Under the pieces are notes generated by a model. It was not told the origin of the DNA, made no database searches, and was given only the letters and a program-made list of their open reading frames with translations. Source: Thalassospira profundimaris (lineage in GTDB: Bacteria > Pseudomonadota > Alphaproteobacteria > Rhodospirillales > Thalassospiraceae). From it: a DNA stretch of 64,000 nt. The stretch is from NCBI RefSeq assembly GCF_003326675.1, contig NZ_JPWF01000006.1, positions 248,001 to 312,000 on the forward strand, written 5' to 3'. The position numbers and the translations under genes were made by a program. The first letter of the stretch is position 1; the number at the start of each line of letters is the position of its first letter. Positions 32,734 through 60,623 of this stretch are shown here, piece after piece.

Positions 32734-32786
32734 GGATTGAGACATAATTGGTCAGGTTTGATCCAACCTGGTGTGAGGGGACGCTT

Positions 32787-33440
32787 GTGCGCATTCTTTT
32801 GGTAGAAGATGAACTGATGCTGGCCGATGCGGTGCGGGATCATTTGCTGGCCGCGGGGGAAGCGGTCGACCATAGCGACAGCGTGGTTGATGCCGAGATC
32901 ATGCTGCGCGGGACCAATTATGATGTGCTGTTGCTTGATCTGAATTTGCCGGACGGCAAGGGCATTGATCTTTTGCGCGACCTTCGTCGCAGTGGATCGG
33001 CAACGCCATGCATTATTCTGACCGCACAGGATCAGATTTCCGACCGGATCGAGGGGCTTAATGCCGGGGCGGATGATTATCTGGTCAAGCCGTTTGATCT
33101 GAACGAGCTTTCGGCGCGTCTGTCGGCTGTGGCGCGACGTTATAGCGGCAATCCAAATCCGTTTATCAGTCTGGATGGCGGGGTCGAGGTTGACCTTGCC
33201 GGCCGGGCCATCCTGATTGACGGGGTGCAGACCGATCTGACATCGCGGGAATGGGCGCTGTTTGATCAGATGGTGCGCAGGCCCGGCCAGACTTTATCGA
33301 AGCGTCAGCTTGAAGAAGCATTGTATGAATTCGGGGCCGAGATCGAAAGCAACACGGTCGAGGTTTATGTCAGCCGCCTGCGCCGCAAGCTTGGCAAGGA
33401 AGTGATCAAGACTGTGCGTGGTGTCGGCTATCGGGTTTAG
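32787..33440 (+). CDS. OmpR/PhoB-family response regulator
   Basis: Regulator of 217 residues. The receiver domain carries the phospho-acceptor Asp51 (VLLLDLNLPDG), acidic pair in LLVEDEL, Thr/Ser in ILTAQD and Lys in LVKPFDL. The C-terminal winged helix spans about 125-217 (LTSREWALFDQMVRRPGQTL, NTVEVYVSRLRRKLGK, VRGVGYRV). The GTG at 32787 follows GAGGGGA by five bases; the longer frame from 32748 has no site. The kinase gene follows after 20 bases. Confidence 0.94.
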   Translation: MRILLVEDELMLADAVRDHLLAAGEAVDHSDSVVDAEIMLRGTNYDVLLLDLNLPDGKGIDLLRDLRRSGSATPCIILTAQDQISDRIEGLNAGADDYLVKPFDLNELSARLSAVARRYSGNPNPFISLDGGVEVDLAGRAILIDGVQTDLTSREWALFDQMVRRPGQTLSKRQLEEALYEFGAEIESNTVEVYVSRLRRKLGKEVIKTVRGVGYRV

Positions 33441-33460
33441 GGTTCAGGATTTCGGACTTT

Positions 33461-39546: not shown

Positions 39547-41259
39547 ATGCCCCGTTTCCGTTTGTTGCCGCAGGTTACACGGCTTGCACCCATTGATTAT
39601 CGCATTGTTCTTGTGGCGCTGGCGGCGTATTTCGCGCTGATTCTCAATACCAGGCTGCTGGGGCATTTTTACGACATTCTGGGCGGGCTTGGGGATTATG
39701 ACCTTGGCTTTGCGATCAGTGCGCCGTTCGTTCTGGTCTTTGCATCGCTTGTTGTCTTTACGCCTTTTTCGTTCAAATACCTTTTTAAGCCGTTTTTCAT
39801 TGTCCTGATCCTGATCAGTGCGCTTGCCCATTATGGCATGGCCAAATACGGCATCGTTTTTGATCGTGGCATGATCGAAAACGTGGTTGAGACCAACCAG
39901 ACCGAGGCCTTTTCCTATTTCAGTCTGTCTGCGACCTTGTGGTTTGTTGTGACCGGGATTGTGCCGGCAATTGTGCTTTTGCTGGTGCCGGTCAGTTATC
40001 CGAAAACCGTGTTGCACGGGATCGCACAGCGCTTTGTGATGATTGCGGTGCCGTTGGTGATGCTTGGCGGATTGGCGGGGCTGTATTTCAAGGATTACGC
40101 ATCGGTCGGGCGCAACAACAAGGTACTGGGCAAGGAAGTCATCCCGTCCAATTACATCACCGGCACCATTCAATATGTGAAGCGCCGCTATCTTTATGCC
40201 GATATGCCGTTTCACAAGATTGGCGAGGATGCGCGCCTTGTGAAACAGTCCGGTGATGAAAAGCCGACCCTGATGTTCCTTGTGATCGGGGAAACCGCGC
40301 GGGCGCAAAGTGTGGCGGCCAATGGCTATGACCGGCCGACATCACCGTTCACCAGCAAAATCGACGGGCTTCTGGCGTTTCAGAATGTGCAGTCATGTGG
40401 CACGGCAACGGCGGTTTCGGTGCCTTGCATGTTTTCGCCGATGGATCATGCCAATTATGATGGCGAAGCCGCACGGCATAGCGAAAGCCTGATGGATGTT
40501 CTGAACCGGGCCGGGGTCAAGGTTCTTTGGAAGGATAATGACGAAGGATGCAAAGGGGTGTGTGACCGCATTCCGACCATCGAAATCGCCGCCAAGGATT
40601 TCCCGGAAGACTGCGCACTTGGCACCTGTTTTGACGAGGTGATGTTGCGCAATCTTGATCAGGAAGTGAGCGACAAGGCGCAGAACCAGTTGATCGCCTT
40701 TCACCTGATGGGCAGCCACGGGCCAACCTATTACAAGCGTTATCCTGACGCGCAACGCGCCTTTGGCCCGGATTGCCCGCGCAGTGATATTGAAAATTGC
40801 ACGGCCGAGGAACTGGTCAATACCTATGACAACACCATTCGATATACCGATTATGTTGTTGCCCAGCTGGTCGAGAAACTGAAAACCTATCAGGACCGGT
40901 TTAATACCGTGCTGCTGTATGTTTCCGATCATGGGGAATCACTGGGCGAGGGGGGCTTGTATCTTCATGGGGCGCCCTATGTCTTTGCACCCGATGAACA
41001 AACCCATGTGCCGATGATGATGTGGATGTCGCAAGGCTATCAAACCGCACAGGAGATCGAGGCCGATTGCCTTGGCGCTGCGGCCCAGAATGCGGCGTTT
41101 TCGCACGACAATCTGTTCTCGACCGTGCTGGGTGCGATGAATGTTTCAACGGCGCTTTATCAGCAGCAAAAAGACATCCTGGCAACATGCAGCCGACCGG
41201 TGATCGAAACGGCACTTGAGACCGGTTCGACCACGCAGGACGCTCTTCAGCGCAATTGA
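39547..41259 (+). CDS. Phosphoethanolamine--lipid A transferase (EptA-like)
   Basis: Inner-membrane enzyme of 570 residues facing the periplasm. Five N-terminal membrane segments (to about residue 185) are followed by a sulfatase-fold domain. The nucleophile threonine is in VIGETARAQSVAANGYDRPT, with metal ligands in YVSDHGESLGEGGLYLHGAP. Cysteines (QSCGTATAVSVPCMF, DEGCKGVCDR, EDCALGTCF, DCPRS..ENC) match the disulphide pattern of EptA/MCR. The family adds phosphoethanolamine to lipid A and lowers binding of cationic peptides. No PmrAB-like regulator is adjacent. Confidence 0.93.
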   Translation: MPRFRLLPQVTRLAPIDYRIVLVALAAYFALILNTRLLGHFYDILGGLGDYDLGFAISAPFVLVFASLVVFTPFSFKYLFKPFFIVLILISALAHYGMAKYGIVFDRGMIENVVETNQTEAFSYFSLSATLWFVVTGIVPAIVLLLVPVSYPKTVLHGIAQRFVMIAVPLVMLGGLAGLYFKDYASVGRNNKVLGKEVIPSNYITGTIQYVKRRYLYADMPFHKIGEDARLVKQSGDEKPTLMFLVIGETARAQSVAANGYDRPTSPFTSKIDGLLAFQNVQSCGTATAVSVPCMFSPMDHANYDGEAARHSESLMDVLNRAGVKVLWKDNDEGCKGVCDRIPTIEIAAKDFPEDCALGTCFDEVMLRNLDQEVSDKAQNQLIAFHLMGSHGPTYYKRYPDAQRAFGPDCPRSDIENCTAEELVNTYDNTIRYTDYVVAQLVEKLKTYQDRFNTVLLYVSDHGESLGEGGLYLHGAPYVFAPDEQTHVPMMMWMSQGYQTAQEIEADCLGAAAQNAAFSHDNLFSTVLGAMNVSTALYQQQKDILATCSRPVIETALETGSTTQDALQRN

Positions 41260-43595: not shown

Positions 43596-43674
43596 ACCAG
43601 CCGGTTTGCGGTGCCAGAGGCCGGGGTTTTCCCCCGTGCCTCTGGCATTTCCGAGTGTTTTGGGAATTTATCAG

Positions 43675-45375
43675 ATGAAATATCAAACTGTGAAAAGCAC
43701 CCTTTTGGGGGCGCTGGCGGTGCTTGCGTTGTCTTCGGCAAGTCAGGCGGCGAAATATGACCTTTCGGTCGATTACGTGACCATTGATACCGGCGAGATG
43801 AAAACGCGCGGTATCGGTTATAACGGGTCATCGCCCGGGCCGACCTTGCGGTTCAGGGAAGGCGAGGAAGCGGTGATCAATGTCACCAATAATCTGGATG
43901 AAGCGACATCGATCCACTGGCATGGCTTGATCCTGCCCTATCAGATGGACGGGGTGCCGGGCATCAGTTTCCCCGGTATCGAGCCGGGCGAGACTTTTAC
44001 CTATCGCATTCCGGTTTCGCAAAGCGGGACCTACTGGTTCCACAGCCATTCCGGTTTTCAGGAGCCGGACGGGGCTTATGGATCAATCATTATCGAACCG
44101 CAAAAGCGAGAGCCGTTCAAATTTGACCGCGAATATGTCGTGGTTCTGAAGGACAAGCATCCGCATTCCGGGGAGCGCATTTTGCGCAATCTGAAAATGA
44201 TGCCGGACTATTACAACCGCAAACAGCGCACCCTTGGCGACTTCTTTGAGGATGTGTCGAAAAACGGTCTTGGTGCGACCCTGTCGGAACGCGGTGACTG
44301 GGGATCGATGCGGATGATGCCAACCGATATCGAGGATGTGCAGGGCTTTGTCGGCCTGATCAATGGCATGTCGCCCGATCAGAACTGGACCGGGTTGTTC
44401 AAGCCCGATGAACGAGTACGACTGCGTTTCATCAATGCATCGGCGATGACCTATTTCGATGTGCGGATACCCGGTCTTGAAATGACGGTGGTGCAGGCGG
44501 ACGGCAATAATGTGCAACCGGTCAAAGTCGATGAGTTTCGCATTTCGGTTGCGGAAACCTATGACGTGATTGTCCAGCCCAAGGAAGACAAGGCCTATCC
44601 GATTTTGGCGGAATCGATGGGGCGGTCGGGCTTTGCCCTTGCCACCCTTGCACCGCGACAAGGAATGCGGGCCGAGATGCCGGAACTGCGCACCGAGGCA
44701 CCGTTGCTGACCATGGCCGATATGGGCATGAGCCACGGCGATATGGCCGGAATGGATCATGGGGCGATGACAAGCGTTGATCCGTCCGGCGATGACAAGG
44801 ATGCGATGGCCGGTATGGACCATTCGAACATGGCGGGCATGGATCATTCAAATATGGATATGGGCGAAAAGGCCGATCCGTTTTATGCCGCGGGCAGCGG
44901 TTTGATCCCCAAGGCGGCAAATGGCGGCAAGTTCCTGTCCTATGCCGATCTTAAGGCTCAAAAGCCGCTTTATGCCGAACGTCCGGCCACCCGCGAGATC
45001 GAGTTGCGCCTTACCGGGAATATGGAACGCTATAGCTGGTCGATCAATGGCGTGAAATACGAGGATGCCGAACCGATCCGTCTGAAATACGGCGAACGGG
45101 TGCGGTTCAAGTTTGTGAATGAAACCATGATGACCCACCCGATGCATCTGCATGGCATGTGGTCGATCCTTGATACCGGCAAGGGGAAATGGAACCCGGT
45201 CAAGCACACGATCAGCATCAATCCCGGCACCACGGTCTATTCGGAAACCGAAGTCGATGAACCCGGCGAATGGGCATTCCATTGTCATCTGAGCTACCAC
45301 ATGGCGACGGGAATGTTCCGCAAAGTCATTGTCGAAGGCGGGCCGACGGTCGCCGAACTTGAGAACGGGAAATAA
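43675..45375 (+). CDS. copA: Copper-resistance multicopper oxidase CopA
   Basis: Periplasmic oxidase of 566 residues with a Sec-type signal (residues 1-24, SSASQA). The four copper motifs are present: HWHGLILP, WFHSHSGFQ, HPMHLHGMW and FHCHLSYHMATGMF. A Met/His-rich segment (MGMSHGDMAGMDHGAM, MAGMDHSNMAGMDHSNMDMG) at about 357-400 is the CopA copper-sequestering region. It oxidises Cu(I) and protects the periplasm. Most CopA proteins use a Tat signal; no twin arginine is seen here, so either export differs or the true start is further upstream. The copB-like gene follows seven bases later. Confidence 0.92.
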   Translation: MKYQTVKSTLLGALAVLALSSASQAAKYDLSVDYVTIDTGEMKTRGIGYNGSSPGPTLRFREGEEAVINVTNNLDEATSIHWHGLILPYQMDGVPGISFPGIEPGETFTYRIPVSQSGTYWFHSHSGFQEPDGAYGSIIIEPQKREPFKFDREYVVVLKDKHPHSGERILRNLKMMPDYYNRKQRTLGDFFEDVSKNGLGATLSERGDWGSMRMMPTDIEDVQGFVGLINGMSPDQNWTGLFKPDERVRLRFINASAMTYFDVRIPGLEMTVVQADGNNVQPVKVDEFRISVAETYDVIVQPKEDKAYPILAESMGRSGFALATLAPRQGMRAEMPELRTEAPLLTMADMGMSHGDMAGMDHGAMTSVDPSGDDKDAMAGMDHSNMAGMDHSNMDMGEKADPFYAAGSGLIPKAANGGKFLSYADLKAQKPLYAERPATREIELRLTGNMERYSWSINGVKYEDAEPIRLKYGERVRFKFVNETMMTHPMHLHGMWSILDTGKGKWNPVKHTISINPGTTVYSETEVDEPGEWAFHCHLSYHMATGMFRKVIVEGGPTVAELENGK

Positions 45376-45381
45376 TCCATC

Positions 45382-46107
45382 ATGAAAACACACAATCAGA
45401 TGAAAAAGGGTGCGGTTACGGCCCTTGTGATGGCGTTTGTTCCGGTGGTCGGGCAGGCGGCAGAAGGCAAAATCTATTACGGGTTCCAGGCCGAGCAGTT
45501 TGAATATCGCATTGGCGATGAAAACGAAAAACGCGTGGTCTGGGATGCGGATGCCTTTGTCGGCACGGACGAGCTTAAGCTGCGCTGGCAAGGTGAAGGC
45601 GAACGCGACCTTGATGCCGATATCAATGAAAAACTTGAAAACCGGCTGGTGCTGCAAACCCCGATTAGCGATTTTTTCGATGCCAAGGCCGGGGTCCGGC
45701 TTGATACCCCGACAGGGACGGATCGCTGGTATGGATCGGTCGGGGTCATGGGGCTTGCGCCGCAATGGTTTGAAATTGATGCCGATCTGTTCGTGAGCGA
45801 AACCGGTGATGGTTCGGCGCGGCTTGATGTCGAATATGAGGGGCTGATTACCAACCGGCTGGTCCTGACACCATCGTTCGAGATCAATGCGGCCTTTTCC
45901 GAGGATCGGGAAATCGAGGTTGGCAAGGGGATTTCAAGTGCCGAGATTGGGTTGCGGCTTAGTTACGATCTGATTGACCGGGCTGTGTCGCCCTATATCG
46001 GTGTGTCCTATGAACGGAAGTTCGGGGATACGGCCGACTTTGCCAAACATGACGGCGAAGATTACGAGGCGACCTATTTCGTGACCGGACTTCGTTTGAT
46101 GTTCTAG
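45382..46107 (+). CDS. copB: Copper-resistance outer-membrane protein CopB
   Basis: Outer-membrane beta-barrel of 241 residues with a signal peptide to about residue 26. The CopB core is clear (YYGFQAEQFEYRIGDENEK, WDADAFVGTDELKLRWQGEG, SPYIGVSYERKFGDTADFAK) and it ends in a terminal aromatic (LMF). The Met/His-rich N-terminal region common in Pseudomonas CopB is missing, so this is a short form. It is coupled to copA and ends at a strong terminator. Confidence 0.92.
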   Translation: MKTHNQMKKGAVTALVMAFVPVVGQAAEGKIYYGFQAEQFEYRIGDENEKRVVWDADAFVGTDELKLRWQGEGERDLDADINEKLENRLVLQTPISDFFDAKAGVRLDTPTGTDRWYGSVGVMGLAPQWFEIDADLFVSETGDGSARLDVEYEGLITNRLVLTPSFEINAAFSEDREIEVGKGISSAEIGLRLSYDLIDRAVSPYIGVSYERKFGDTADFAKHDGEDYEATYFVTGLRLMF

Positions 46108-48867: not shown

Positions 48868-49161
48868 GACAGCAGTACCTTATGGTCACGGTTTCATCAT
48901 TCCGTAGCCTGCAATTTCCAGCTTTGTTTTTCAAGAAAAGCCTGTATCGCACGGATTATACCGAAAATTGCCAACTTGTTGATTTGGAGGAGTTTTTATT
49001 GAGATTGAGACTTAGTATCGATTCTTGACCAAAATCAAGGATGCCCCCGATGGGGCCCTATATCTCCTGTTTATGAAAATGATTCGCAAAACCAGTTGCA
49101 TTTGATTGGGCGTATTTGTGCCAGTCAATTTGGTCACTGATCACGGGAATGGGAATTTGAT
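48868..49161. other. Promoter region of 294 bases ahead of the TonB-like/ABC/NnrS unit
   Basis: No gene seen. It holds an FNR/NnrR-type box (listed separately), a TATATC that could be the -10 element at 49059-49064, and a weak AT-rich stretch near 49073-49090 (GAAAATGATTCGC) that partly resembles half of a Fur box. That likeness is too weak to call. Confidence 0.6.
49025..49038 (+). promoter_or_regulatory. FNR/NnrR/Dnr-type regulator box
   Basis: TTGAC-CAAA-ATCAA matches the CRP/FNR-superfamily consensus TTGAT-N4-ATCAA with one change, and flanking C and G extend the dyad to CTTGA...TCAAG. With -10 TATATC at 49059-49064 the start of transcription would be near 49071-49073, placing the centre of the box at about -40 to -41.5, the class II activation position of FNR-type regulators. 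Confidence 0.72.
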
Positions 49162-51087
49162 ATGAGGCTCATGAAACGTTTGTCCGGGGGGACTGCCCTT
49201 GTTCTGGGGTGTGTATTCTGGATGACGCTGTCCGAGGGCGTTGTTGCACAGGAATTATTTGTTGATCCGCAGGAGGTGCAACGCCATGCCAAAGGTGGGC
49301 CGCCGAAACTGGTAACACCGGAAACATTGTTGAAGTCGGACCCGATGCATCAGTTCCGCCATGGTGTACTGGAAAAATCCGAAGGGGTTGAAGACAGTGT
49401 GCTGGACGCAAAGCGCCCGGTGAAGATAACGACCCGTTTTGACGGGGCCGGGGATACAAAAACCTATGCCGGGCAAGCTGCCATCAAAGGGGCCCAGGGA
49501 TTTGCCATGGGAGGGTATCGATTGGAAGATTCCGGCACTTATGCAAGTGGTGATGGTGAACAGGTTAATGCCGGGTATCGCCGTGAGGTGCGTCAGTTTG
49601 TCACCGGGTGGACACCTTCGCCGTTGGCATCGCTGAAACTTGTCGGGATCCAGGATGATATTACCGATGAGAAACAACCCCATCATGGTCTGGATTTGCT
49701 TGAAACAGATCGCAAGGTTGGTCGGGGTATCCTTGAAACACACGATATTTTTGGCACAGGCGTTGATTTTAAAGCCGGTTTAAAAGTGATTGATCTGGAT
49801 CGTCGTGCGGACAATTACAGCCTGCGCAGCAACAGCGGCCAGAAAATGCGGGTTGCGATTGATCGCCGGATTTGGGAAGGGCAGGGCAAGGCATCGTTTG
49901 AGAAGGAGGGCTGGGAAAATGTCCTGACATTTACCGGAACGCACGATAACCATGTCGCAAGGCGCTATAACGTCACAAATGGCGACAAAGTCAATTCCGT
50001 CCGAATCCCGGATGTTGATCGCGACACGCTGGCGCTTAATCTTGATACGGGAAAAAGTTTTGGCTCGGAGCAGGATCAGACCCTGAAGGCCGGCATTCGG
50101 TTTGAACGGGTCACTACAGCACCGGGGGCCGCTGACGAGGTGCCCGATGGCGGGCCAAACCCAGCATTGTTCAATATCAGCCCGAGAACCCTTTATAGCA
50201 GCTATTACGGAACCACCGACCTTGAGGCCACGGATCATAATCTGAGCGGGCGTTTGCGTTACGAGCAACTTGTTCATCCCGCCGGTCTTACGGTTTATGG
50301 AGACGCATCACGAATTGTACGATCAGCGGATAATATCGAGAAATACCATGCCGTAACCGGTGCTACGACATCGCGCTGGATCGGGAACCCACAGCTTTCA
50401 GCGGAAAAACATCACAAGTTCGAACTTGGCGCGGTCTTTGAAGACGATGCCTATCTTGACTATCAACGCAAGAAGCCGGGGGCCGGGCTGTTCCAATCCC
50501 TACGCCTGAGTGGATCGGTCTATTACGACCAGATTAATGACTTTATTACCCTTGATCGGGCGCGTGGACAAAGCGGGGTCCTGTTAAGCGACGGGGCCTA
50601 TGTTTTTCGCAATGTTGATGCGAACTGGATGGCGGCAACCGCCGACCTGCAATGGAATGCGACACGTAATCTGTCGGGCCAGATGAATATGGTCTGGCAG
50701 CGGGCCGAAAACACAACGGACAATCGGGCTGTCTATCAGGTGGCCCCGCTTGAAGCCAATTTTCTCGTCGACTATCACGAAAATCTCAGCAGCCTTGGAA
50801 CGTGGAATGTCGGTTCCCGGTTGCGTCTGGTGGCTGATCAGAACCGTCTTGATGATGACAGCAATAGGGGGAGTGGCTTTGACGAGCATACCGGTGGGTT
50901 TGGTGTGCTGGATCTTTACGCCGGAATGCAGGTTTACGACCGGGTGTCCCTGAGCGCGGGGATCGACAACCTGTTTGACCGTGATTACCGCGAATACATT
51001 AAAGGCAATCACGTCGAAAACCCAGGAAAATCAACGATCTATGCGCCGGGGCGGGCCATCTGGATACGCCTGTCGGGTAATTTCTAG
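49162..51087 (+). CDS. TonB-receptor-like outer-membrane barrel lacking a recognisable plug
   Basis: Protein of 641 residues with a signal peptide to about residue 30. The C-terminal two thirds are TonB-receptor barrel: NLFDRDYREYIKGN and the ending YAPGRAIWIRLSGNF, in the style of copper receptors NosA/OprC. Between the signal and the first barrel strands (RPVKITTRFDGAGDTKTY, about residue 80) there are only about 50 residues. I find none of the plug marks (an RG motif, a DGxP motif, IEVxxGP). Receptors of this kind are usually 680-720 residues. ATG 49162 has GGGAA seven bases upstream. It heads a unit with an ABC importer and NnrS. The ligand may be a metal or metal chelate (inference). Confidence 0.75.
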   Translation: MRLMKRLSGGTALVLGCVFWMTLSEGVVAQELFVDPQEVQRHAKGGPPKLVTPETLLKSDPMHQFRHGVLEKSEGVEDSVLDAKRPVKITTRFDGAGDTKTYAGQAAIKGAQGFAMGGYRLEDSGTYASGDGEQVNAGYRREVRQFVTGWTPSPLASLKLVGIQDDITDEKQPHHGLDLLETDRKVGRGILETHDIFGTGVDFKAGLKVIDLDRRADNYSLRSNSGQKMRVAIDRRIWEGQGKASFEKEGWENVLTFTGTHDNHVARRYNVTNGDKVNSVRIPDVDRDTLALNLDTGKSFGSEQDQTLKAGIRFERVTTAPGAADEVPDGGPNPALFNISPRTLYSSYYGTTDLEATDHNLSGRLRYEQLVHPAGLTVYGDASRIVRSADNIEKYHAVTGATTSRWIGNPQLSAEKHHKFELGAVFEDDAYLDYQRKKPGAGLFQSLRLSGSVYYDQINDFITLDRARGQSGVLLSDGAYVFRNVDANWMAATADLQWNATRNLSGQMNMVWQRAENTTDNRAVYQVAPLEANFLVDYHENLSSLGTWNVGSRLRLVADQNRLDDDSNRGSGFDEHTGGFGVLDLYAGMQVYDRVSLSAGIDNLFDRDYREYIKGNHVENPGKSTIYAPGRAIWIRLSGNF

Positions 51088-51126
51088 TGCGGCACGAATG
51101 TTTGATGCTGTTTTAAGGAGATAAAA

Positions 51127-52137
51127 ATGTTCAATGCCAAAAATCTTGATCGACGGAATTTCTTGGCTGGCGTAGCTGCCAGCGGTGCGATTGCATTGTC
51201 TTCGCGTTCTGTTCTTGCCGGGGCACTGAAAACGGGGGATGCGGTTGGCATTTGGGGGCCGCCGGTCGGCCCGTCGATTGCACTGGCACATTTGACGGAA
51301 AGCAGTGCGATACAAGACGCGGCACCGGGGTCGGTTTTTCGGGTCTGGCGGACACCCGATCAAATGCGGGCCGGGGTTGTTTCAGGTGAAATGGAAATCA
51401 CGATTGTGCCGACCTATACCGGGGCGAACCTGTTTAATCGCGGATTGCCGGTCAAGATGGCGAATGTGATGACCTGGGGCCTGCTTTATATGATGAGCAC
51501 GGATCGAGCCGTAACATCACTTTCCGATATTGGCGGAAAAACGATTGTCATGCCGTTTCGCAATGATATGCCCGATCTTGTGTTTCGCCATATTCTCAGC
51601 GCCAACGGGATATCGGCAGATAAGGATATTGAGATTGTTTACACGGCAACCCCGCTTGAAGCAGTGCAATATTTGTTATCGGGGCGGGTTGATACCGCGA
51701 TTTTGCCGGAACCGCTTGCCACAGCATCTATTCTTAAGGGGCTTGGCGCATCTGTCAGTGTAGATCGGGTTTTGAGCCTTCAGGACGAATGGGGACGGGC
51801 GACCGGGCGGGCACCGTTTATTCCGCAGGCCGGTGCCGTGGTCAGTGACGGCCTTTTGGCGCGCAAGCCTGATTTTGTGACGGCATTCAACATACAGGCA
51901 GCACAGTCGACCGACTGGGTGAACAACAATCCGGCAAGTGCCGGGCGACTGGCACAGGATTATCTGGAGATTGGTGGGCCAGTAATCGAGAAATCCATTC
52001 CCTACTCCAATTTGCGGATGGTTTCGGCCGGAGATGCGCGCGCAGATCTTGAATTTTTCTTTGAAACGCTGGCGCAGCAATCACCCGATATCATCGGCGG
52101 TAAATTACCCGCAGATGAATTTTACCTTTCGCTTTGA
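51127..52137 (+). CDS. ABC transporter substrate-binding protein, NMT1/SsuA-like
   Basis: Periplasmic binding protein of 336 residues. The signal has a twin-arginine motif (LDRRNFLAGVAASGAIALSS) ending near SVLAG, so export of a folded, perhaps ligand- or cofactor-bound, form is likely. The fold is the nitrate/sulfonate/taurine/thiamin-precursor group (MEITIVPTYTGANLFNRGLP, DIGGKTIVMPFRNDMPDLVF, YLLSGRVDTAILPEPLATAS). The substrate is not predictable. AAGGAG lies eight bases ahead of the ATG. It is part of the unit with the barrel, permease, ATPase and NnrS. Confidence 0.9.
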   Translation: MFNAKNLDRRNFLAGVAASGAIALSSRSVLAGALKTGDAVGIWGPPVGPSIALAHLTESSAIQDAAPGSVFRVWRTPDQMRAGVVSGEMEITIVPTYTGANLFNRGLPVKMANVMTWGLLYMMSTDRAVTSLSDIGGKTIVMPFRNDMPDLVFRHILSANGISADKDIEIVYTATPLEAVQYLLSGRVDTAILPEPLATASILKGLGASVSVDRVLSLQDEWGRATGRAPFIPQAGAVVSDGLLARKPDFVTAFNIQAAQSTDWVNNNPASAGRLAQDYLEIGGPVIEKSIPYSNLRMVSAGDARADLEFFFETLAQQSPDIIGGKLPADEFYLSL

Positions 52138-52158
52138 CCAGAGGCAGGAAAAGGCGTG

Positions 52159-52971
52159 ATGGGCGTTGTAAAAGACATTGCTGTTTATTTCTGGAGTGTC
52201 TGGGGGGCGCTGGTTGGTCTTTTCCTGTTTGTTGCGCTTTGGGAAGCCGGGCATGCTGTGTATGGCGATTTTATCCTGCCAGCCCCGGCTGATGCTCTGG
52301 CGCGGTTTGGGGATTTTGTGCACGACGGATCGGCGGTATCGGCGGCATCCGATACGGCCATTCGCGCAATTGGCGGATTTGCGGTTTCCGGGCTGATTGG
52401 CAGTCTGGTCGGGGTCATGGCCGGGTTGTCGATAACAGCCGCCCGGGCAGTGCGCCCGGTGGTGACGGTATTGCTTGGTATTCCGCCAATTGCATGGATT
52501 GTGCTGGCGTTGCTGTGGTTCGGGCCGACCGGCATGACACCGATGTTTACGGTTATTGTCACCAGCATTCCGATTACCTTTGCCGGGGCGGTGGAGGGCA
52601 CACGTACCCTAGACCGCGACCTTGAGGATATGGCGCGTATTTTTCGTGCTACCCGGTTACGCATTTTTGTTGATGTGCATCTTCCTCATATCCTGTCCTA
52701 TCTGTTTCCTGCCTGGATTACGGCACTTGGCATGGCTTGGAAGGTTGCGGTGATGGCCGAACTTCTGGCGACCTCGGACGGGATTGGCGCCAGAATGGCA
52801 ACCGCGCGGGTCAATCTTGACATGGCTGCGACGATGGCGTGGATTGTTGCGACTGTCGGATTGTTGCTGATGGTCGAATATCTTGTCCTGGAGCCACTTA
52901 AACGGCGTACGGAAACATGGCGTCAGCGTCCTGCCGGACACGGGAATTCCAGTCAGATGCGGAGGATGTGA
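52159..52971 (+). CDS. ABC transporter permease, SsuC/TauC-like
   Basis: Inner-membrane permease of 270 residues with about six membrane segments. GTG 52156 and ATG 52159 are adjacent; the ATG is spaced better from AGGAAAAGG. Marks are [34 protein letters not shown] and the EAA-like loop [21 protein letters not shown]. The stop TGA overlaps the start of the ATPase gene. Confidence 0.92.
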
Positions 52972-53711
52972 TGCTGGCGTGGAAATCCGTTTCGATCAGT
53001 CGAATGGGGCAGGAAATATTTTCTGATATCTCGCTGGAGATCGGGCAGGGCAAGATTGTTTCTCTGGTTGGGCCGTCGGGCTGTGGCAAGACGACATTGT
53101 TGATGATTGCGGCGGGATTGATGGATGCGGATAGCGGCAGTCTTGAATGTGGCTTTCGTAATCCGGGAATGGTGTTTCAGGAACCGCGTTTGTTGCCGTG
53201 GAAGCGTGCGGGGGACAACATGGCATTTGGTCTTGTTGCCCGGGGGCAGAAAAGCATCGATTTTCGCTGCCGGATTGAGGCATTGGCCGCCACGCTTGGC
53301 CTTGATCGGCGTGATCTGGACAAGTATCCACATGAACTGAGTGGCGGGATGCGTCAGCGTGTTGCCCTTGGTCGCGCCCTGGTGATTGAGCCGGATTTGC
53401 TGTTGCTTGACGAGCCGTTCAGCGCGCTTGATATCGGCTTGCGCCAGGAATTGCAGGATTTACTGGTGCGCCAGATTTCAGAGCGTGGATTGACGGCGGT
53501 GTTTATTACCCATGATTTGGTCGAAGCAGCCCGGATCAGTGACGTCATTGTTGTTATGGACCGGCATCCGCGCGGGATTGTTTATCAACACGCGATGCCC
53601 GGTATACCTGGTTGCCGTCCAGAACGAGACATTTTTAGCGCGGTTGGTGATTTGCTGGCTGTGCCGGTGGTGGCGCGGGCATTCCGGGCACAGGATATAG
53701 AGAAACTTTGA
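52971..53711 (+). CDS. ABC transporter ATP-binding protein, SsuB/TauB-like
   Basis: ATPase of 246 residues. Walker A is GPSGCGKTT, the Q-loop is [13 protein letters not shown], the signature is LSGGMRQR, Walker B is [12 protein letters not shown] and the H-loop is [16 protein letters not shown] 52971 overlaps the permease stop and has GGAGG upstream; the longer frame from 52917 reads into the permease gene. Its stop overlaps the nnrS start. Confidence 0.93.
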
Positions 53712-54910
53712 TGGATCGCTTTTATCAGCATCCCGTTTGGGCTTATGCATTCAGGCCCTTCTTTCTTCTGGCAGCAGGTTACGCCATTGCGATCATTCCG
53801 GTCTGGGTCTTTGTTTTGTTTAGTGGTGCGGATCCGTTGCCCTTGACGTCACCGGGGCTTTGGCATGGGCATGAATTGATTTACGGTTTTATGGTGGCAG
53901 CCCTTGCCGGATTTATCCTGACAGCATTGCCAAGCTGGACGTCATCGGCGCCGCTTTGCGGACGGGGACTGGTTTGGCTTGTTGCGTTGTGGCTGGCCGG
54001 GCGTGGTGTGATGATGTTTGCCGCCATACTGCCAATTACCTTGGTGGCACTTGTTAATCTTGCGTTTTTACCGGTGCTTTTGTGGCTTGTGGCGCGGGCG
54101 ATGATTGCTGCACGGATTTACCGCCATGCCGGATTTGTTTGGGTTATTGCGGGATTGTTTCTGGCGCAGGTTCTGTTTTTTGCCGGTGTTTCTTTCGAGG
54201 GGGAGTTTCATGGTGGTGCCGCATGGGACGGAATTGGCCTGAGATCAGCTGTTTTGTTGATGGTGGTGTTGATTGTGTTGTCAACGACGCGCATTGCGAT
54301 GGTTGTGGTTAATTTCGCCTTGGAAGAAGACGGATGTGATCCGATCTTTCGCCCGACACCGCCGCGCCGGAATTTGGCAAACTTTGTGGTGTTGCTTTAT
54401 CTGTTGGTTGATGGAGTTTCCCCCGGCCACGCGGTTGGGGGATGGATCGCCCTTGCCGCCGCAGCAGCCCAGCTCGACGTCATGAGCGATTTTCACATCG
54501 GGCGCGTTTTGCGCCGTCCCTATGTTTTGGGGCTTTATCTGGGACATGGCTGGATTGCGGCTGGTTTTGCCGGGATCGGGATATCGTCAATTTGGGGAAT
54601 AGGTCTTGGGAGCGATTTTCTGCATGGATTGGGGATTGGTGCCGCGGGAATCGCGATCCTGACCGTTATGGGAATTGCCGGTCTGCGCCATAGCGGACGT
54701 GCATTGCAGTTTTCGACAGGACTTTATGGCGCGCTTATCCTGATCAATCTTTCGGCGGTGCTGCGGGTAGGGGGAAGCTATGTCGACGTGATCCCCTATG
54801 ACGTAATGATCGGTACGGCATCGGTTTTGTGGGTTCTGAGTTTTGTTCTTTATCTTGTGGTGTTTGTGCCGAAGCTTTTGTCTGTGCGTGCGGATGGCAA
54901 ACCGGGATAA
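53711..54910 (+). CDS. nnrS: NnrS-family heme/copper membrane protein
   Basis: Inner-membrane protein of 399 residues with about 12 hydrophobic segments. Typical NnrS marks are AYAFRPFFLLAAGYA, LWHGHELIYGFMVAALAGF, DFLHGLGIGAAGIAILTVMG and IAGLRHSGRALQ, including the conserved histidines that bind heme. In Rhodobacter and Vibrio, NnrS is induced by nitric oxide through NnrR/NsrR and eases nitrosative stress. Start ATG overlaps the ATPase stop, so it belongs to the ABC unit, and the FNR/NnrR-type box upstream of the unit fits. Confidence 0.9.
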   Translation: MDRFYQHPVWAYAFRPFFLLAAGYAIAIIPVWVFVLFSGADPLPLTSPGLWHGHELIYGFMVAALAGFILTALPSWTSSAPLCGRGLVWLVALWLAGRGVMMFAAILPITLVALVNLAFLPVLLWLVARAMIAARIYRHAGFVWVIAGLFLAQVLFFAGVSFEGEFHGGAAWDGIGLRSAVLLMVVLIVLSTTRIAMVVVNFALEEDGCDPIFRPTPPRRNLANFVVLLYLLVDGVSPGHAVGGWIALAAAAAQLDVMSDFHIGRVLRRPYVLGLYLGHGWIAAGFAGIGISSIWGIGLGSDFLHGLGIGAAGIAILTVMGIAGLRHSGRALQFSTGLYGALILINLSAVLRVGGSYVDVIPYDVMIGTASVLWVLSFVLYLVVFVPKLLSVRADGKPG

Positions 54911-54951
54911 GCGCAGTAGCCAAAGCGTGATGCAATGATAGCCTGAAAACA

Positions 54952-54981
54952 AAAACGGCCGGGGAAATCCCCGGCCGTTTT
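54952..54981. terminator. Bidirectional intrinsic terminator
   Basis: AAAACGGCCGGGG (54952-54964) pairs exactly with CCCCGGCCGTTTT (54969-54981) over a 4-base loop. It serves both nnrS and the convergent nrdJ. Its arms are identical to those of the terminator at 12901-12933. Confidence 0.93.
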
Positions 54982-55016
54982 GCTGATCAGATCAGAAGTC
55001 GTTCGGGCCGTAACCC

Positions 55017-58000
55017 TTAGGAGCAACCGGTGGTCGCGCCGCAAGAGTCGCATTTCAGGCAGGTGCCGTTACGCACCAGGGTGAAGTTGCCGCAATCCGG
55101 GCAACCGTCGCCTTCGTAACCCTTCATGCGGGCTTCGCGAATTTTGTCCATCTTGTCATCGGTTTTGGCGATGACTTCTTCGCTGGTGGTCAGGATCGCA
55201 TTGTTCTGCGGTGCTGACGGGGCAGCGGTGGTTGCGGCACTTGCGGTGGTTTCATGGCTGTGATTGTGGCCATGACCGTCGGTGCCGGTGGACTTGACTT
55301 CGATAACGCGTTCTTCGGTCTGTGCGCCGCCGTCAACAACATAGAGGTTGCGACGTACGAAGCCCGAAGAGGCAACCTTGCGGATGGTTTCGATCGCCTG
55401 ATCGCCGGATTTCTTGGCTGCTTCGCCAAGGTCACCTTCGGCGACACCTTCGCCAACCGCATCCGGAAGGATGTCGGACGGCTGAACGTGGGCAAGATCG
55501 TTACGACCAAGGTAAGAGATCGCCAGTTCGCGGAACATGTAATCAAGAATGGAGGTTGCCATCTTGATCGCATCGTTGCCCGAAACCATACCCGACGGTT
55601 CAAAGCGGGTGAAGGTGAAGGCTTCGACATATTCTTCCAGCGGAACGCCATATTGCAGGCCGATGGAAACCGCGATTGCGAAGTTGTTCATCAGCGAGCG
55701 GAAAGCAGCGCCTTCCTTGTGCATGTCGATGAAGATTTCGCCAAGCTTGCCGTCTTCATATTCACCGGTGCGCAGGTAAACCTTGTGACCGCCAACGGTG
55801 GCCTTCTGGGTGTAGCCTTTGCGGCGACCCGGAAGCGAGCGACGATCACCACGGATGACGCGTTCGATGATTTTTTCGACGATCTGCTCGGATGCGGCGG
55901 CTGCCTTGGCGGCGGACGGCTGATCCGAGTAATCCTCTTCCTCGACGAGGGCAGAGTTCAGCGGCTGGCTGAGTTTCGAGCCATCACGATACAGGGCGTT
56001 TGCCTTCAGACCCAGACGCCAGGACAGCATATAGGCGTCCTTGCAATCCTGAATGTTGGCGCTGCTCGGCATGTTGATGGTTTTCGAAATCGCACCCGAG
56101 ATGAACGGCTGAGCCGCGGCCATCATGCGGATGTGGCTTTCAGCCGACAGGTAACGTTTGCCGATACGGCCACACGGGTTTGCACAATCAAAGACCGACA
56201 GGTCTTCGTCACGCAGGTGCGGGGCCTGTTCGAGGGTCATCGAACCACAAACATAGGTGTTGGCAGCTTCGATCTGTTTCTTGTCAAACCCGAGGGCGGC
56301 AAGCATGTCAAAGTCCATCGAATTGATGGCTTTGGCATCCAGGCCAAGGGTGTTGATGCAGAAATCATCGCCAAAGGTGTATTTGTTGAAGACGAATTTG
56401 ATGTCGAATGCGTTTTTAAGGGCGCCTTCGACCTTGGCAATTGCGTCGTCATCGAAACCTTTGGCGCGCAGATCGTCATGGGAGACGGCCGGCGAACCAA
56501 CCAGCGTACCGTGACCAACCGCGTATTTTTCAATGTCGCGGATCTGGTTTTCGGTATAGCCGAGCGTTGCAAGCGCAACCGGAACGGTGCGGTTGATGAT
56601 TTTGAAGTAACCGCCGCCAGCAAGCTTTTTGAACTTCACGAGTGCGAAGTCAGGCTCGATGCCGGTGGTGTCGCAATCCATGACCAGACCGATGGTGCCG
56701 GTCGGCGCAATAACGGTGGTCTGGGCGTTGCGGTAACCGTGTTTTTCACCCAGTTCCAGTGCCTTGTCCCAAGCAGCGCGGGCAGCAACCGGAAGATCGG
56801 CATAGGGGCTGTCGGCAGCAACCAGCGGAACCGGATTGATCGACAGGCCTTCGTAGCCTTCCTGTTCGCCATAAGCCGCGCGGCGATGGTTACGCATGAC
56901 GCGCAGCATTTCAGAGGCGTTATCGCCATAGCCCGGGAACGGACCCTGTTCGCCAGCCATTTCGGCCGAGGTCGCATAGGAAATACCGCACATGATCGCG
57001 GTCAGGGACGCGCCAATCGCACGGCCTTCGTCGCTGTCATAGGAGATACCCATGCTCATCAGCAGGCCGCCAATGTTGGCATAGCCAAGGCCGAGCGTAC
57101 GGTAACGATAGGAAAGTTCCGCAATACGATCCGACGGGAACTGTGCCATCAGAACCGAGATTTCAAGAACCACAGTCCACAGACGAACGGCATGTTCATA
57201 GGCTGCGATGTCCACACCGCCATCATCAGAACGGAAGTTCATCAGGTTAAGCGATGCAAGGTTACATGCGGTGTCATCAAGGAACATATATTCCGAGCAC
57301 GGGTTGGACGCATTGATGCGACCCGAATTCGGGCAGGTGTGCCATTCGTTAATCGTGGTGTCGTACTGGATGCCCGGATCAGCACAAGCCCAAGCAGCTT
57401 CGCCAACCTTGTCCCAAAGATCACGTGCATTGACGGTTTTGGAGACTTTGCCGTCGGTGCGTCGGGTCAGGTTCCAGTCGGAATTATCCAGAACAGCCTG
57501 AAGGAAGTCGTTCGACACACGAACAGAGTTGTTCGAGTTCTGGCCGGAAACGGTCAGATATGCTTCGGAATCCCAGTCAGTGTCATAGGTTTTGAAGCTG
57601 ATCTCGGTGAAGCCCTGACGAGCGAATTCGATGATCTTGTTGATATAGGAATCCGGGATCATGACAGCGCGGGCAGCCAGCACAGCTTCTTTGAGCTGCG
57701 GGTTGTTGCGCGGAATGAAGCGGTATTCCGAATCAGCGGCACCGTCCCAGTTGGTGCAGGCCGCAAGAACAGCGGTCAGGTGCTTTTCAGCCAGTTTGGA
57801 ACCGGCGACGAGGGCAGCAACTTTCTGCTCTTCGACGACTTTCCAATCAATATATTCTTCGATGTCCGGGTGATCAATATCGACCACAACCATTTTGGCT
57901 GCGCGGCGGGTGGTGCCACCCGATTTGATCGCGCCAGCAGCACGGTCACCGATTTTCAGGAAGCTCATCAGGCCCGAAGAACGACCGCCACCCGACAGGG

Positions 58001-58730
58001 TCTCGCCGCCGCCACGAACGTTGGAGAAGTTCGAACCGGTACCGGAGCCGAATTTGAACAGGCGGGCTTCACGGGTCCAGAGATCCATGATGCCGCCTTC
58101 ATTGACCAGATCGTCGGCAACAGACTGAATGAAGCAGGCATGCGGCTGCGGATGTTCATACGCGCTTGCCGATTTGGTCAGTTCGCCTGTTTTGAAATCA
58201 ACATAGGAGTGACCCTGTGCCGGGCCATCAATGCCATAGGCCCAATGCAGACCGGTGTTGAACCACTGCGGAGAGTTCGGTGCACCCATCTGGTGGGAGA
58301 GCTGATAGCGCATTTCATCAAAGAAAGCCTGCGCATCGGATTCGGCATCAAAATAGCCGCCTTTCCAGCCCCAGTAGGTCCAGGTGCCAGCAAGACGATC
58401 AAAGACCTGGGTTGCGCTGGTTTCGCTGGTATAGCGTTTTTCAGCCGGCATTTTGTCAAGCTTGGCGGTGTCGGCAGTCTGACGCCACAGCCAGGACGGG
58501 ACGTCCTTTTCCTTGACCGGTTTGAGCGCGACCGGAACGCCCGCCTTGCGGAAATATTTCTGAGCCAGAACGTCACTCGCCACCTGTGAGAAGGAAGCGG
58601 GCATGTCAATGTCATTCATCGCAAAAACGACGGAACCATCCGGGTTTTTGATGACGGAAGATGACTTACGAAATTCGATGTCGGCATATGGGCTGACACC
58701 GTCCTGAGTGAACTTTCTGGTAATCCGCAT
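55017..58730 (-). CDS. nrdJ: Vitamin B12-dependent (class II) ribonucleoside-diphosphate reductase
   Basis: Enzyme of 1237 residues that reduces ribonucleotides to deoxyribonucleotides using adenosylcobalamin, so it works with or without oxygen. The catalytic N-x-C-x-E motif is in [20 protein letters not shown]. Other marks are [40 protein letters not shown] and a C-terminal zinc ribbon ([20 protein letters not shown], then [10 protein letters not shown]) that also holds the cysteines for reactivation by thioredoxin. Length is normal for the long alphaproteobacterial NrdJ. Two NrdR boxes and a possible promoter lie upstream. No B12 riboswitch was found. Confidence 0.96.
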
Positions 58731-58890
58731 GGTCTGCTCCGGTTTTGATCAGCCGTAAGGAGGCGCTATCTGGTAATGCGCCAACATCGCCTGATTTTAT
58801 ATAGTTTGCTCATTGCTATTGCGCTGCCCCAATTACCGATATTTTCCGGCGTTTCTGGTGCGTCGCAGATGTCTGTATTCGGTGGTGTGG

Positions 58891-58922
58891 TCCCCCCTTG
58901 GAACCATCCGGTCCGTGGGGGA
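58891..58922 (-). promoter_or_regulatory. Stem-loop at the 5' end of the nrdJ leader
   Basis: TCCCCC (58891-58896) pairs with GGGGGA (58917-58922), with an inner pairing GGAACC/GGTCC. A -10-like TTATAT on the minus strand (58925-58930) and a -35-like TGGACT (58948-58953) would start transcription near 58918, so the stem would lie at the extreme 5' end of the RNA. A role in stability is possible. Confidence 0.4.
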
Positions 58923-58950
58923 ATATATAATGGCAAAAATTCGCCACAGT

Positions 58951-58998
58951 CCACTAATCTTTGTGGTTGACAGCAATTTTTACCACAACATGTAGTGG
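58951..58998. promoter_or_regulatory. Pair of NrdR boxes upstream of nrdJ
   Basis: CCACTAATCTTTGTGG (58951-58966) and CCACAACATGTAGTGG (58983-58998) are 16-base near-palindromes that fit the NrdR box (consensus of the type ACACWATATATWGTGT). Their starts are 32 bases apart, three helical turns, the spacing NrdR needs. The nearer box abuts the predicted -35 element, consistent with repression of nrdJ when dATP is plentiful. Confidence 0.85.
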
Positions 58999-59122
58999 GT
59001 TGGTTGCTGTCTTGCTGATTCGATGCTGAGGGGATTCTCGTTAACAATCTCTGAATCAGGGCGGGAAGCCCGGAAAACTGCGGTTTCAAATCCCGCAAGA
59101 TTGTGTGCCGGTCACAAGACTC

Positions 59123-59170
59123 GGACTAGATGTTGTGTCGGCACGAGTGATCCGCCACAACGTAGAGACA
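59123..59170. promoter_or_regulatory. Second, degenerate pair of NrdR-like boxes
   Basis: GGACTAGATGTTGTGT (59123-59138) and CCACAACGTAGAGACA (59155-59170) resemble NrdR boxes with several changes. Their starts are again 32 bases apart. They lie about 170 bases beyond the first pair, perhaps a relic of a second promoter or an auxiliary site. Confidence 0.45.
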
Positions 59171-59679
59171 AGCTAACGCCGTTTGCCGCCGATTTCCAGT
59201 CCGAACCTGAAAATGTGGCTGTTCATACGTATAGTTAACATGCGAACCGGCGATAACAGTTTGATATTTATATTAAAGTCTCGATTTATGCGCAGGCATG
59301 AAACGACGCGGATCAAGAAGGGCGACATACCATATATATGGGCACGATTGTGGATAACCGGGTGGACAGATGCCCCAGATATATGCGGATCAATGAGTCG
59401 TCGCACTACAAGCAGTTGTGGGTTGTTTTGAACCGGTAAATATCAGTGTTTCCGCACCCCGGTTCCGGTTTGGGTTGAGCTTGCCGATGCCCATAGACGG
59501 GGCAGGGACCAAATATGGTGATATCGTCGTTGGCAATGTCCTTGAAACATTGACTTTCAAACAACATCGCGACATATAAGTCTCTTGTTCGACAGGGGAC
59601 ACACCGCATGTGCCCTGTTCCGCCTGAAACATTCCTTGTGATGCCGGGCGGACAAACCAGATCTGGAGAGAGACCCAAC

Positions 59680-60042
59680 ATGGCCACCGTCGGCACCCGT
59701 ATCTTTACTGCGCTGTTTGGCAAGCGCGTTGGCGAAGACCGTTTCGGCAATGTCTATTACACCGAAAAGACTCCGGCCAAGGGCCGCCGCACCAAGCGCT
59801 GGGTGGTTTACAAAGGTGTTGTTGAAGGGTCGAAAGTTCCGGCTGAATGGCATGCTTGGCTGCATTACACCGTTGATGCGCCGCTGTCTGAAAAGGCCGA
59901 GGATCGTTACGACTGGCAGAAAGAGCATCTGCCGAACCTGACCGGGACCAAACATGCATACCGCCCGCAGGGCCACGAATATAATGGTGGCAAGCGCGCG
60001 AAAGCGACCGGTGACTATCAGGCATGGTCGCCGGAAGGCTGA
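59680..60042 (+). CDS. NADH:ubiquinone oxidoreductase accessory subunit NDUFA12
   Basis: Protein of 120 residues, the bacterial counterpart of the mitochondrial B17.2 subunit of complex I. Conserved marks are VGEDRFGNVYYTEK, RRTKRWVVYKGVVEGSKVPA and EWHAWLHYTVDAPL. It occurs in alphaproteobacteria as an accessory subunit on the matrix/cytoplasmic arm. ATG 59680 has GGAGAGAG upstream; the longer frame from 59608 has no family match. A terminator follows, so it is probably monocistronic. Confidence 0.95.
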   Translation: MATVGTRIFTALFGKRVGEDRFGNVYYTEKTPAKGRRTKRWVVYKGVVEGSKVPAEWHAWLHYTVDAPLSEKAEDRYDWQKEHLPNLTGTKHAYRPQGHEYNGGKRAKATGDYQAWSPEG

Positions 60043-60068
60043 TCGGCCAAAAGAACTGAAAAATACGG

Positions 60069-60097
60069 CGGGCGCGGGGTAACTCGCGCCCGTTTTT
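60069..60097 (+). terminator. Intrinsic terminator after the NDUFA12 gene
   Basis: CGGGCGCG (60069-60076) pairs with CGCGCCCG (60085-60092) over an 8-base loop, followed by five T. Confidence 0.88.
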
Positions 60098-60170
60098 GTT
60101 TTGGGCGGTTGTGTTTTGACGCTGTGCAATACAATATGCCCGTCAAAGAGATACAGATCGGATAAGGTCC

Positions 60171-60623
60171 ATGAGCAACAGACTGATCGAAACCCTTGCC
60201 GGTGCTGCGGTAATTGCCGTCGCGGTTGGATTTGCAGCCTATTCATATAGCCGTGCCGGTATCAATACGGTTGACGGATATGAAATTAAAGCCAGCTTTA
60301 ACCGTATTGACGGTCTGGCTGTTGGCAATGATGTCCGTATTTCCGGTGTGAAAGTCGGTAGCGTCACCGCACAGGAACTTGATCCGAATACCTATATGGC
60401 CGTTGTCAAAATGTCGCTGCGATCCGATCTGGCCCTGCCGATGGACAGTTCGGCCAAGATTGCGTCTGACGGTTTGCTGGGCGGCAAGTTTGTTGCGTTG
60501 GAGCCGGGTGGCGATATCGATATGATCGAAGCTGGCGGCGAGATCGAATACACCCAGGGATCGGTGAATCTTGAAGACCTGATCGGTCAGGTGATCTATT
60601 CGAGCACCAATAGCAAAGAATAG
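60171..60623 (+). CDS. mlaD: MlaD-type MCE protein of outer-membrane lipid asymmetry
   Basis: Protein of 150 residues. One N-terminal membrane anchor (LAGAAVIAVAVGFAAYSYS) is followed by an MCE domain (YEIKASFNRIDGLAVGNDVR, ISGVKVGSVTAQELDPNTY, ASDGLLGGKFVALEPGG). It forms the periplasmic hexamer of the Mla transporter. The mlaE and mlaF partners are not in the window. It is the first gene of a short unit with a small protein and a DUF2155 gene. Confidence 0.93.
   Translation: MSNRLIETLAGAAVIAVAVGFAAYSYSRAGINTVDGYEIKASFNRIDGLAVGNDVRISGVKVGSVTAQELDPNTYMAVVKMSLRSDLALPMDSSAKIASDGLLGGKFVALEPGGDIDMIEAGGEIEYTQGSVNLEDLIGQVIYSSTNSKE

Follow-up and report, generated by a model that had tools for sequence, protein, structure and literature searches.

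What does an ATP-binding cassette (ABC) importer bring into the cell when its genes are joined by overlap to nnrS, and how does the compound cross the outer membrane to reach it? These questions are raised by a five-gene unit at positions 49162–54910 of the stretch of DNA analyzed here (hereafter the window), which comprises 64,000 nucleotides of contig NZ_JPWF01000006.1 of Thalassospira profundimaris (GCF_003326675.1). The unit encodes an outer-membrane barrel, an NMT1-type periplasmic substrate-binding protein (SBP), a permease, an ATPase and NnrS, and it is preceded by an FNR/DNR-type box. The unit is conserved but patchily distributed and is built from known protein families; its unusual part is the barrel, which lacks the plug domain of TonB-dependent receptors. 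Gene order, overlaps, box, family assignments, conservation and absence of the plug are all established at the level of sequence. As to function, we consider it an even proposition that the unit imports a small compound, organic or chelated, under regulation by nitric oxide (NO) or low oxygen, with NnrS as its inner-membrane partner and a barrel that works independently of TonB. The features are as follows.

49162–51087, plus strand: outer-membrane barrel, plugless, 22-stranded, of the OprC/NosA family (PF00593, partial TIGR01778, AlphaFold (AF2) model, Foldseek)
51127–52137, plus strand: NMT1-type periplasmic binding protein with a twin-arginine start (PF13379 above cut-off)
52156 (GTG) or 52159 (ATG)–52971, plus strand: ABC importer permease, BPD_transp_1 (PF00528)
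52971–53711, plus strand: ABC importer ATPase, ABC_tran (PF00005); probable ATG at 52971, longest open reading frame (ORF) from 52917
53711–54910, plus strand: NnrS (PF05940, 275.7 bits against a cut-off of 28); probable ATG at 53711, longest ORF from TTG at 53708
49025–49038, no strand assigned: FNR/DNR-type box TTGACCAAAATCAA, 123 bases 5′ of the barrel start codon
54952–54981, no strand assigned: perfect, terminator-like hairpin between convergent genes, 13 pairs of which 9 are G-C

As the original prediction had stated, the five genes are co-directional, with 39 bases between barrel and binding protein and overlaps, each of the form TGATG, at both the permease–ATPase and ATPase–NnrS junctions; all five ORFs were confirmed, and the gap between binding protein and permease is 18 (GTG) or 21 (ATG) bases. 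The binding protein, permease and ATPase all scored above the curated Pfam cut-offs, as a set typical of an NMT1-type ABC importer. The strong terminator claimed for the 3′ end was borne out in part: the hairpin is likely the terminator of the unit, while the scan scored only its minus strand as terminator-like, because the Ts on the plus strand belong to the stem. A sigma-70 promoter scan returned 3 matches, compared with 4.7 expected from shuffled sequences, and thus nothing above chance.

The plugless outer-membrane barrel

In Pfam the window barrel matched PF00593 alone, with an E-value of 0.001. The plug domain (PF07715, with E-values up to 1 considered) was found in none of the 23 barrels of this kind, the window protein included, whereas all 25 alternative receptors from sister units possessed it; PF00593 itself was matched by 19 of the 23 plugless barrels. 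The match to TIGR01778 reached 197.5 bits against a cut-off of 472.45 and covered only profile positions 152–637, so the score of the curated OprC/NosA family was not attained. The AF2 model contained 22 strands over residues 87–640 with a mean predicted local distance difference test (pLDDT) score of 71.7, and pLDDT fell below 50 at residues 1–31 and 36–84, leaving no confidently folded N-terminal domain. When this barrel was compared by Foldseek, ranks 1–28 were all OprC, in agreement with the earlier suggestion that it resembles OprC and NosA.

The 22 strands, the nearest fold and a motif of the NPxLxPExHH type are shared with the OprC/NosA family (TIGR01778), from which the window barrel differs in its lack of a plug and in what precedes the barrel, namely 86 residues, compared with 157–202 in plug-bearing NosA-type receptors. 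It differs as well in CxxxM, which we take to be the copper site of OprC: this motif occurred in the plug of all 10 distinct plug-bearing NosA-type rows, while its sole match in the window barrel was at residue 17, within the signal peptide as judged by eye. In the NosA-type comparison, L025 and L030 yielded no ORF, L033 was in the wrong frame and L020 was identical to L081.

In the tail that follows the signal peptide, His42 was found in 19 and Pro47 in 20 of the 20 main-group rows, and three NosA-like rows had no tail. No TonB box was recognized by eye in the mature N-terminal tail. Of 21 rows of plugless barrels, 19 are full length. Alignment A2 combined these 19, without the fragments L091 and L102, with the window barrel and three NosA-like plugless rows, and its mean column identity is 43%; such barrels were found in alpha-, beta- and gammaproteobacteria and at standalone loci. 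Nine standalone relatives outside the unit (L074–L080, L082, and L083) looked plugless by their N-termini, as judged by eye, and a scan of L083 found PF00593 only. A nosZ relative scoring below the curated cut-off is found some 4 kb away from one standalone plugless barrel of the OprC family (L019, contig C10 of G036, 53086–60322).

In the available text of PMC12914433, TonB-dependent transporters are plug-bearing, and the copper receptor CrtA (BfrG) described there, which resembles the window barrel in being an outer-membrane receptor linked to respiratory enzymes, differs from it in possessing a normal plug at residues 42–171. Because the plug is absent, TonB could not gate the window barrel by its known mechanism, and the complete import route through a TonB-type receptor that had originally been proposed does not stand in that form. 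Naturally plug-lacking receptors were not reported in the literature that we searched, the coverage of which was limited and leaves their absence unproven.

Conservation of the unit and exchange of its outer-membrane partner

Relatives of the binding protein were collected by scanning GTDB species genomes with an SBP alignment, which gave 323 relatives, and all locus counts below were made on the best 80. The order barrel–SBP–permease–ATPase–NnrS was found in six other genomes of the same taxonomic order (L064–L069), so that the survey proposed earlier has ruled out its absence elsewhere; one of these genomes belongs to the same genus (83–92% protein identity) and the others have identities of about 30–60%. 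The contig of L070 ends before NnrS, and in L071 and L072, also of the same taxonomic order, the arrangement is SBP–permease–receptor–ATPase–NnrS with a different receptor. Downstream of the SBP in the best 80 of the 323 relatives, the permease was found at 78 loci, the ATPase at 74 and NnrS at 68, while NnrS was upstream instead in three Cohaesibacter loci. The Cohaesibacter loci L087, L090, and L092 are permuted, with permease, ATPase and one or two NnrS genes followed by barrel and binding protein. SBP, permease, ATPase and NnrS form a conserved unit across alpha-, beta- and gammaproteobacteria, with representatives, as judged from record titles, in Rhodospirillales, Rhizobiales, Rhodobacterales, Burkholderiales, Vibrionaceae, an Oceanospirillaceae bin and a Chromatiales bin. 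The closest binding protein is that of Thalassospira alkalitolerans (90% identity). The spread is patchy, the SBP being found at an E-value of 1e-40 or better in 6 of 289 genomes drawn across the class. In the parts of PMC1274295, PMC6710368, PMC9409073, PMC4417242, PMC7713065, and PMC12423496 covered by our search for NnrS together with an importer, the unit was not described; this coverage was limited and leaves its absence from the literature unproven.

A large outer-membrane barrel was encoded within 6 kb of 53 of the 80 units (at two of them on the opposite strand), and in 29 of these it was a TonB receptor. In a phylogeny of the 80 locus binding proteins and that of the window (81 in total), which was built by a quick method with support only from the Shimodaira–Hasegawa-like approximate likelihood ratio test (SH-aLRT) and in which the meeting of long branches was flagged, the outer-membrane partner is a plugless barrel, a plugged TonB receptor or none, and 11 changes among these states are required; the starred branches force at least 4 changes for the plugless state. 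The cleanest swap is between the sisters L122 (plugless) and L127 (plugged TonB receptor). That the same importer core occurs with an energized receptor or with a plugless barrel suggests, without showing it, that both serve the same substrate. The core of SBP, ABC importer and NnrS in other bacteria would thus be served by a genuine TonB receptor, or have no outer-membrane protein found nearby. For alignment A3, 25 of the 29 plug-bearing receptors were used; L110, L111, L112, and L152 were excluded as presumed near-copies.

The window NnrS retains W52, H53, E56, W77, R99, R195, R220, H306, and H328, each of which is present in 95–100% of 58 unit-linked rows, the window included; at one position it has Val where 91% of the other rows have Arg. 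Its identities to the two other copies in the host genome are 31 and 22%, and a sequence search of the PDB gave no credible relative, the one match having an E-value of 0.6. A second NnrS-like gene follows the first in L116, L122, L130, L140, L141, L143, L147, and others, in Azospirillum, Rhizobium and other units. The accessible text of PMC4417242 presents NnrS as containing both haem and copper; as far as the consulted portions of PMC1274295 and PMC9409073 go, the protein turns up repeatedly in NO-responsive regulons and has no agreed function. The window unit resembles NnrS of the NsrR, NnrR and DNR regulons in carrying an NO-linked FNR-family box over NnrS (PMC1274295) and differs in that no ABC importer is named with NnrS in the portion of PMC1274295 consulted.

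Some relatives of the importer have other company. In L120, L123, and L124 (Brevibacillus and Cytobacillus) there is an ATPase–SBP–permease version without NnrS, and in L073 an SBP–permease pair lies 3′ of an iron-sulfur gene (FeFe-hydrogenase-like, named by eye), with no NnrS found within 20 kb. The Brevibacillus importer L120 is accompanied by a Crp/Fnr regulator, a small cupin-like protein and an S-adenosylmethionine (SAM) methyltransferase, the last of which also occurs in L092, L095, L099, and L144. The association of SAM methyltransferase, Crp/Fnr regulator and cupin (Vibrio L095, Cohaesibacter L092, and Brevibacillus L120) was considered as a clue to the substrate and rejected, since the methyltransferase is present in only 5 of the 80 loci. 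It had no match in the host genome, in a search that included no known positive and whose empty answer is uninformative.

NO and low-oxygen control and genomic surroundings

The box TTGACCAAAATCAA is the sole perfect match to TTGAYN4RTCAA within the window, which upholds the FNR/NnrR-type box of the original prediction. Sites with one mismatch numbered 6 in the window compared with 8.4 in shuffled sequences and were not in excess; across the genome, 31 perfect sites were found compared with 4 for a reversed control pattern, which makes a chance match of the window box possible but unlikely. The proposed link to NO or low oxygen gained support from the sister units: a loose box (TTGM-N6-KCAA) lies upstream of 41 of the 80 units, compared with 101 of 886 other called genes at the same loci (p 3e-16), and the strict box upstream of 17 of the 80 compared with 34 of the 886 (p 1e-7), the control genes having been called by a crude gene caller and possibly including false genes and co-regulated neighbors. 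Boxes precede the Thalassospira units (window and L084) and some Vibrio, Cohaesibacter and Magnetospirillum units. A Crp/Fnr-type regulator is encoded within 9 kb at 19 of the 80 loci and inside the unit in L129, L150, and L163.

The host is a marine denitrifier, and in its genome boxes of the same kind precede ubiT, ric, norC, a nirS-like gene and a small gene that lies before nosR. Contig C44 carries an island that contains ubiV-ubiU-ubiT, ric, norCBQD-like genes, a nirS-like gene, three Crp/Fnr regulators, another nnrS and nos genes. Family models support UbiT, Ric, two of the Crp/Fnr regulators, UbiV, NosZ and NnrS there; the names nor, nirS-like and UbiU, and those of the remaining nos genes, were read from sequence and gene order. 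The NorB candidate matched only cytochrome-oxidase-type relatives among the family models, and the nirS-like candidate gave weak cytochrome matches. These own-genome boxes support, without proving it, the view that the unit is under DNR/FNR-type control by NO or low oxygen.

The nirK, nosZ and hemN neighbors that had been suggested for survey fared unevenly. None of these genes was seen near the window unit, hemN being absent among those window genes that were scanned, which covered part of the window; nosZ of the host is on a different contig, and no host protein scored above the cut-off for NirK, for which there were three weak partial matches, one being the window CopA region. HemN did appear elsewhere, as one of a set (UbiU, UbiV, UbiT, UbiX, HemN, NnrU, Ric, or nor-like genes) of which members lie within 9 kb at 25 of the 80 loci, mostly of Rhizobiales and not independent; one representative per gene family or cluster was scanned within these 9 kb, and nor-like genes were named by eye.

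Upstream of the unit are an isochorismatase gene on the opposite strand and, farther upstream, an AraC gene. The multicopper oxidase CopA (above the TIGR01480 cut-off) and CopB are encoded at 43606–46107. At 39547–41259 and 32748–34849 there are an EptA/MCR-3-kind phosphoethanolamine–lipid A transferase (742 bits against a cut-off of 1075 of the MCR-3-related model) and a PmrAB/QseBC-like two-component pair, about 5–7 kb apart.

Substrate, rival explanations and the proposed route

The binding protein carries a nearly invariant twin-arginine pair, R9 and R10, in the 44 rows of alignment A4 (the window and 43 of 74 SBP references), and its AF2 model has a pLDDT of 92. The binding protein, single permease and single ATPase are like those of NitT/TauT (NMT1-type) importers, from which the unit differs in being joined to NnrS by overlap and in having its own outer-membrane barrel. 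The invariant residues of the binding protein include no His/Met/Cys set. The ligand is probably an organic or chelated molecule.

One candidate is an aromatic redox cofactor or precursor like pyrroloquinoline quinone (PQQ), one that the cell is unable to synthesize or would lose during NO stress. In Foldseek the uncharacterized structure 3hn0 ranked first for the binding protein, followed by PqqT with bound PQQ (ranks 3–5), the nearest characterized fold, and then Thi5 and SsuA; PqqT was also among the matches in the profile search. For the plug-bearing alternative receptors, PqqU/YncD is clearly the closest match (9e-34 and 1e-32), well ahead of the next one (2e-14). Because fold and receptor converged in this way, the PqqU signature of Y99, R304, and R365, as given in the accessible text of PMC12124388, was tested, and the alternative receptors were rejected as PqqU: in 25 of 25 these positions read P, T/S, and R, so that two of the three residues fail, the alignment being less sure around R304 and R365 than around Y99. 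With alignment A4 the binding protein was no nearer by sequence to PqqT (7e-5) than to SsuA (3e-5 and 8e-6), and its likeness to PqqT is one of fold only. We consider PQQ-like import doubtful. Import of copper or a copper chelate for NnrS and nitrous oxide reductase, with the barrel as copper receptor and the ABC importer bringing copper in, appears about equally improbable. OprC is nearest to the barrel by both fold and sequence, CopA and CopB are encoded 3–6 kb upstream, NnrS is itself called copper-containing (PMC4417242, in part), and nosA falls within the NnrR regulon of Brucella melitensis in the text available of PMC1274295. The loss of the plug, and with it of the CxxxM retained by every distinct plug-bearing NosA-type row, together with a usual alternative receptor nearest to PqqU/YncD and not to copper receptors, tells against the copper inference of the original prediction, as do the invariant residues of the binding protein. 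Binding proteins of the NMT1 type, moreover, generally take organic ligands or anions.

An ordinary nitrate, nitrite or sulfonate-type importer that shares only a regulon with NnrS, with the barrel as a general porin, would agree with the NMT1/nitrate/sulfonate family membership and with the finding, in the part of PMC12423496 consulted, that regulator mutants of Hyphomicrobium denitrificans contain less of a "NitT" transporter, possibly the importer of this unit, together with less NnrS, Nar, Nir, Nor, and Nos. The overlap with NnrS and its conservation are tighter than co-regulation requires, and the outer-membrane barrels within 6 kb of 53 units, 29 of them TonB receptors, are a further point against an ordinary importer. 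Small anions pass ordinary porins and would have little need of such partners. We regard this explanation as unlikely, to much the same degree. Finally, the barrel may be a decayed receptor of little function that persists in the operon, as plug loss would normally disable a TonB receptor and 2 of the 21 rows (L091 and L102) are fragments as called; the full length and shared identity of the other 19 rows, the conserved His42 and Pro47, and the occurrence in three proteobacterial classes and at standalone loci make decay very improbable.

Several observations weigh against the reading that we prefer, an NO- or low-oxygen-regulated importer with NnrS as partner and a TonB-independent barrel. 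As to the barrel, PF00593 went unmatched in 4 of the 23 proteins as well, and the mean pLDDT of the model is only 71.7, its tail being modeled without confidence. As to control, even the loose box is absent from 39 of the 80 units. As to denitrification, nosZ is above the cut-off in 12 of 23 genomes of the genus and the unit is present in only 2 of 23, so denitrification does not require it; across the order, the unit is only weakly associated with nosZ (7 of 11 vs. 57 of 188, p 0.04, counted by hand at SBP E < 1e-50 and NosZ > 280 bits, with only 29 genomes above the curated cut-off), and its association with ubiV across the class does not reach significance (2 of 6 vs. 32 of 283, p 0.15). 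As to NnrS, 9 of the 80 loci lack it or are not settled: in L094 and L104 the contig stops too early (in L094 after a NnrS start that scores 58 bits), L102 is unsettled, and none was found in L114, L117, L160, and three Bacillota loci, so that NnrS need not accompany the importer. Many of the loci come from close relatives (Rhizobium, Afipia, and Azospirillum), and locus counts are not counts of independent events.

On the preferred reading, a DNR/FNR-type activator would switch the unit on at the onset of denitrification. The OprC-family barrel may then provide a TonB-independent opening in the outer membrane, which the conserved N-terminal tail and the loops of the barrel would line or gate in part, and the binding protein, presumably exported by the twin-arginine route, would drive uptake by trapping the small organic or chelated compound within the periplasm. 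The compound would enter the cytoplasm through the ABC importer. NnrS, translated from the same mRNA, may act at the inner membrane under NO stress, either using the compound or protecting a step that uses it. We propose, more tentatively than the reading as a whole, that natural plugless barrels resembling TonB receptors replace the true receptor in an NO-responsive importer, offering a tail-gated, TonB-independent route, and that importer and NnrS supply a compound needed for life with NO. Given the overlap that joins the importer to NnrS, the ligand of the binding protein may reveal what NnrS works with. If true, a natural 22-stranded receptor barrel without a plug would contradict the usual picture of the plug as gate, and because one importer occurs with plugged as well as with plugless partners, the question of gating can be tested.

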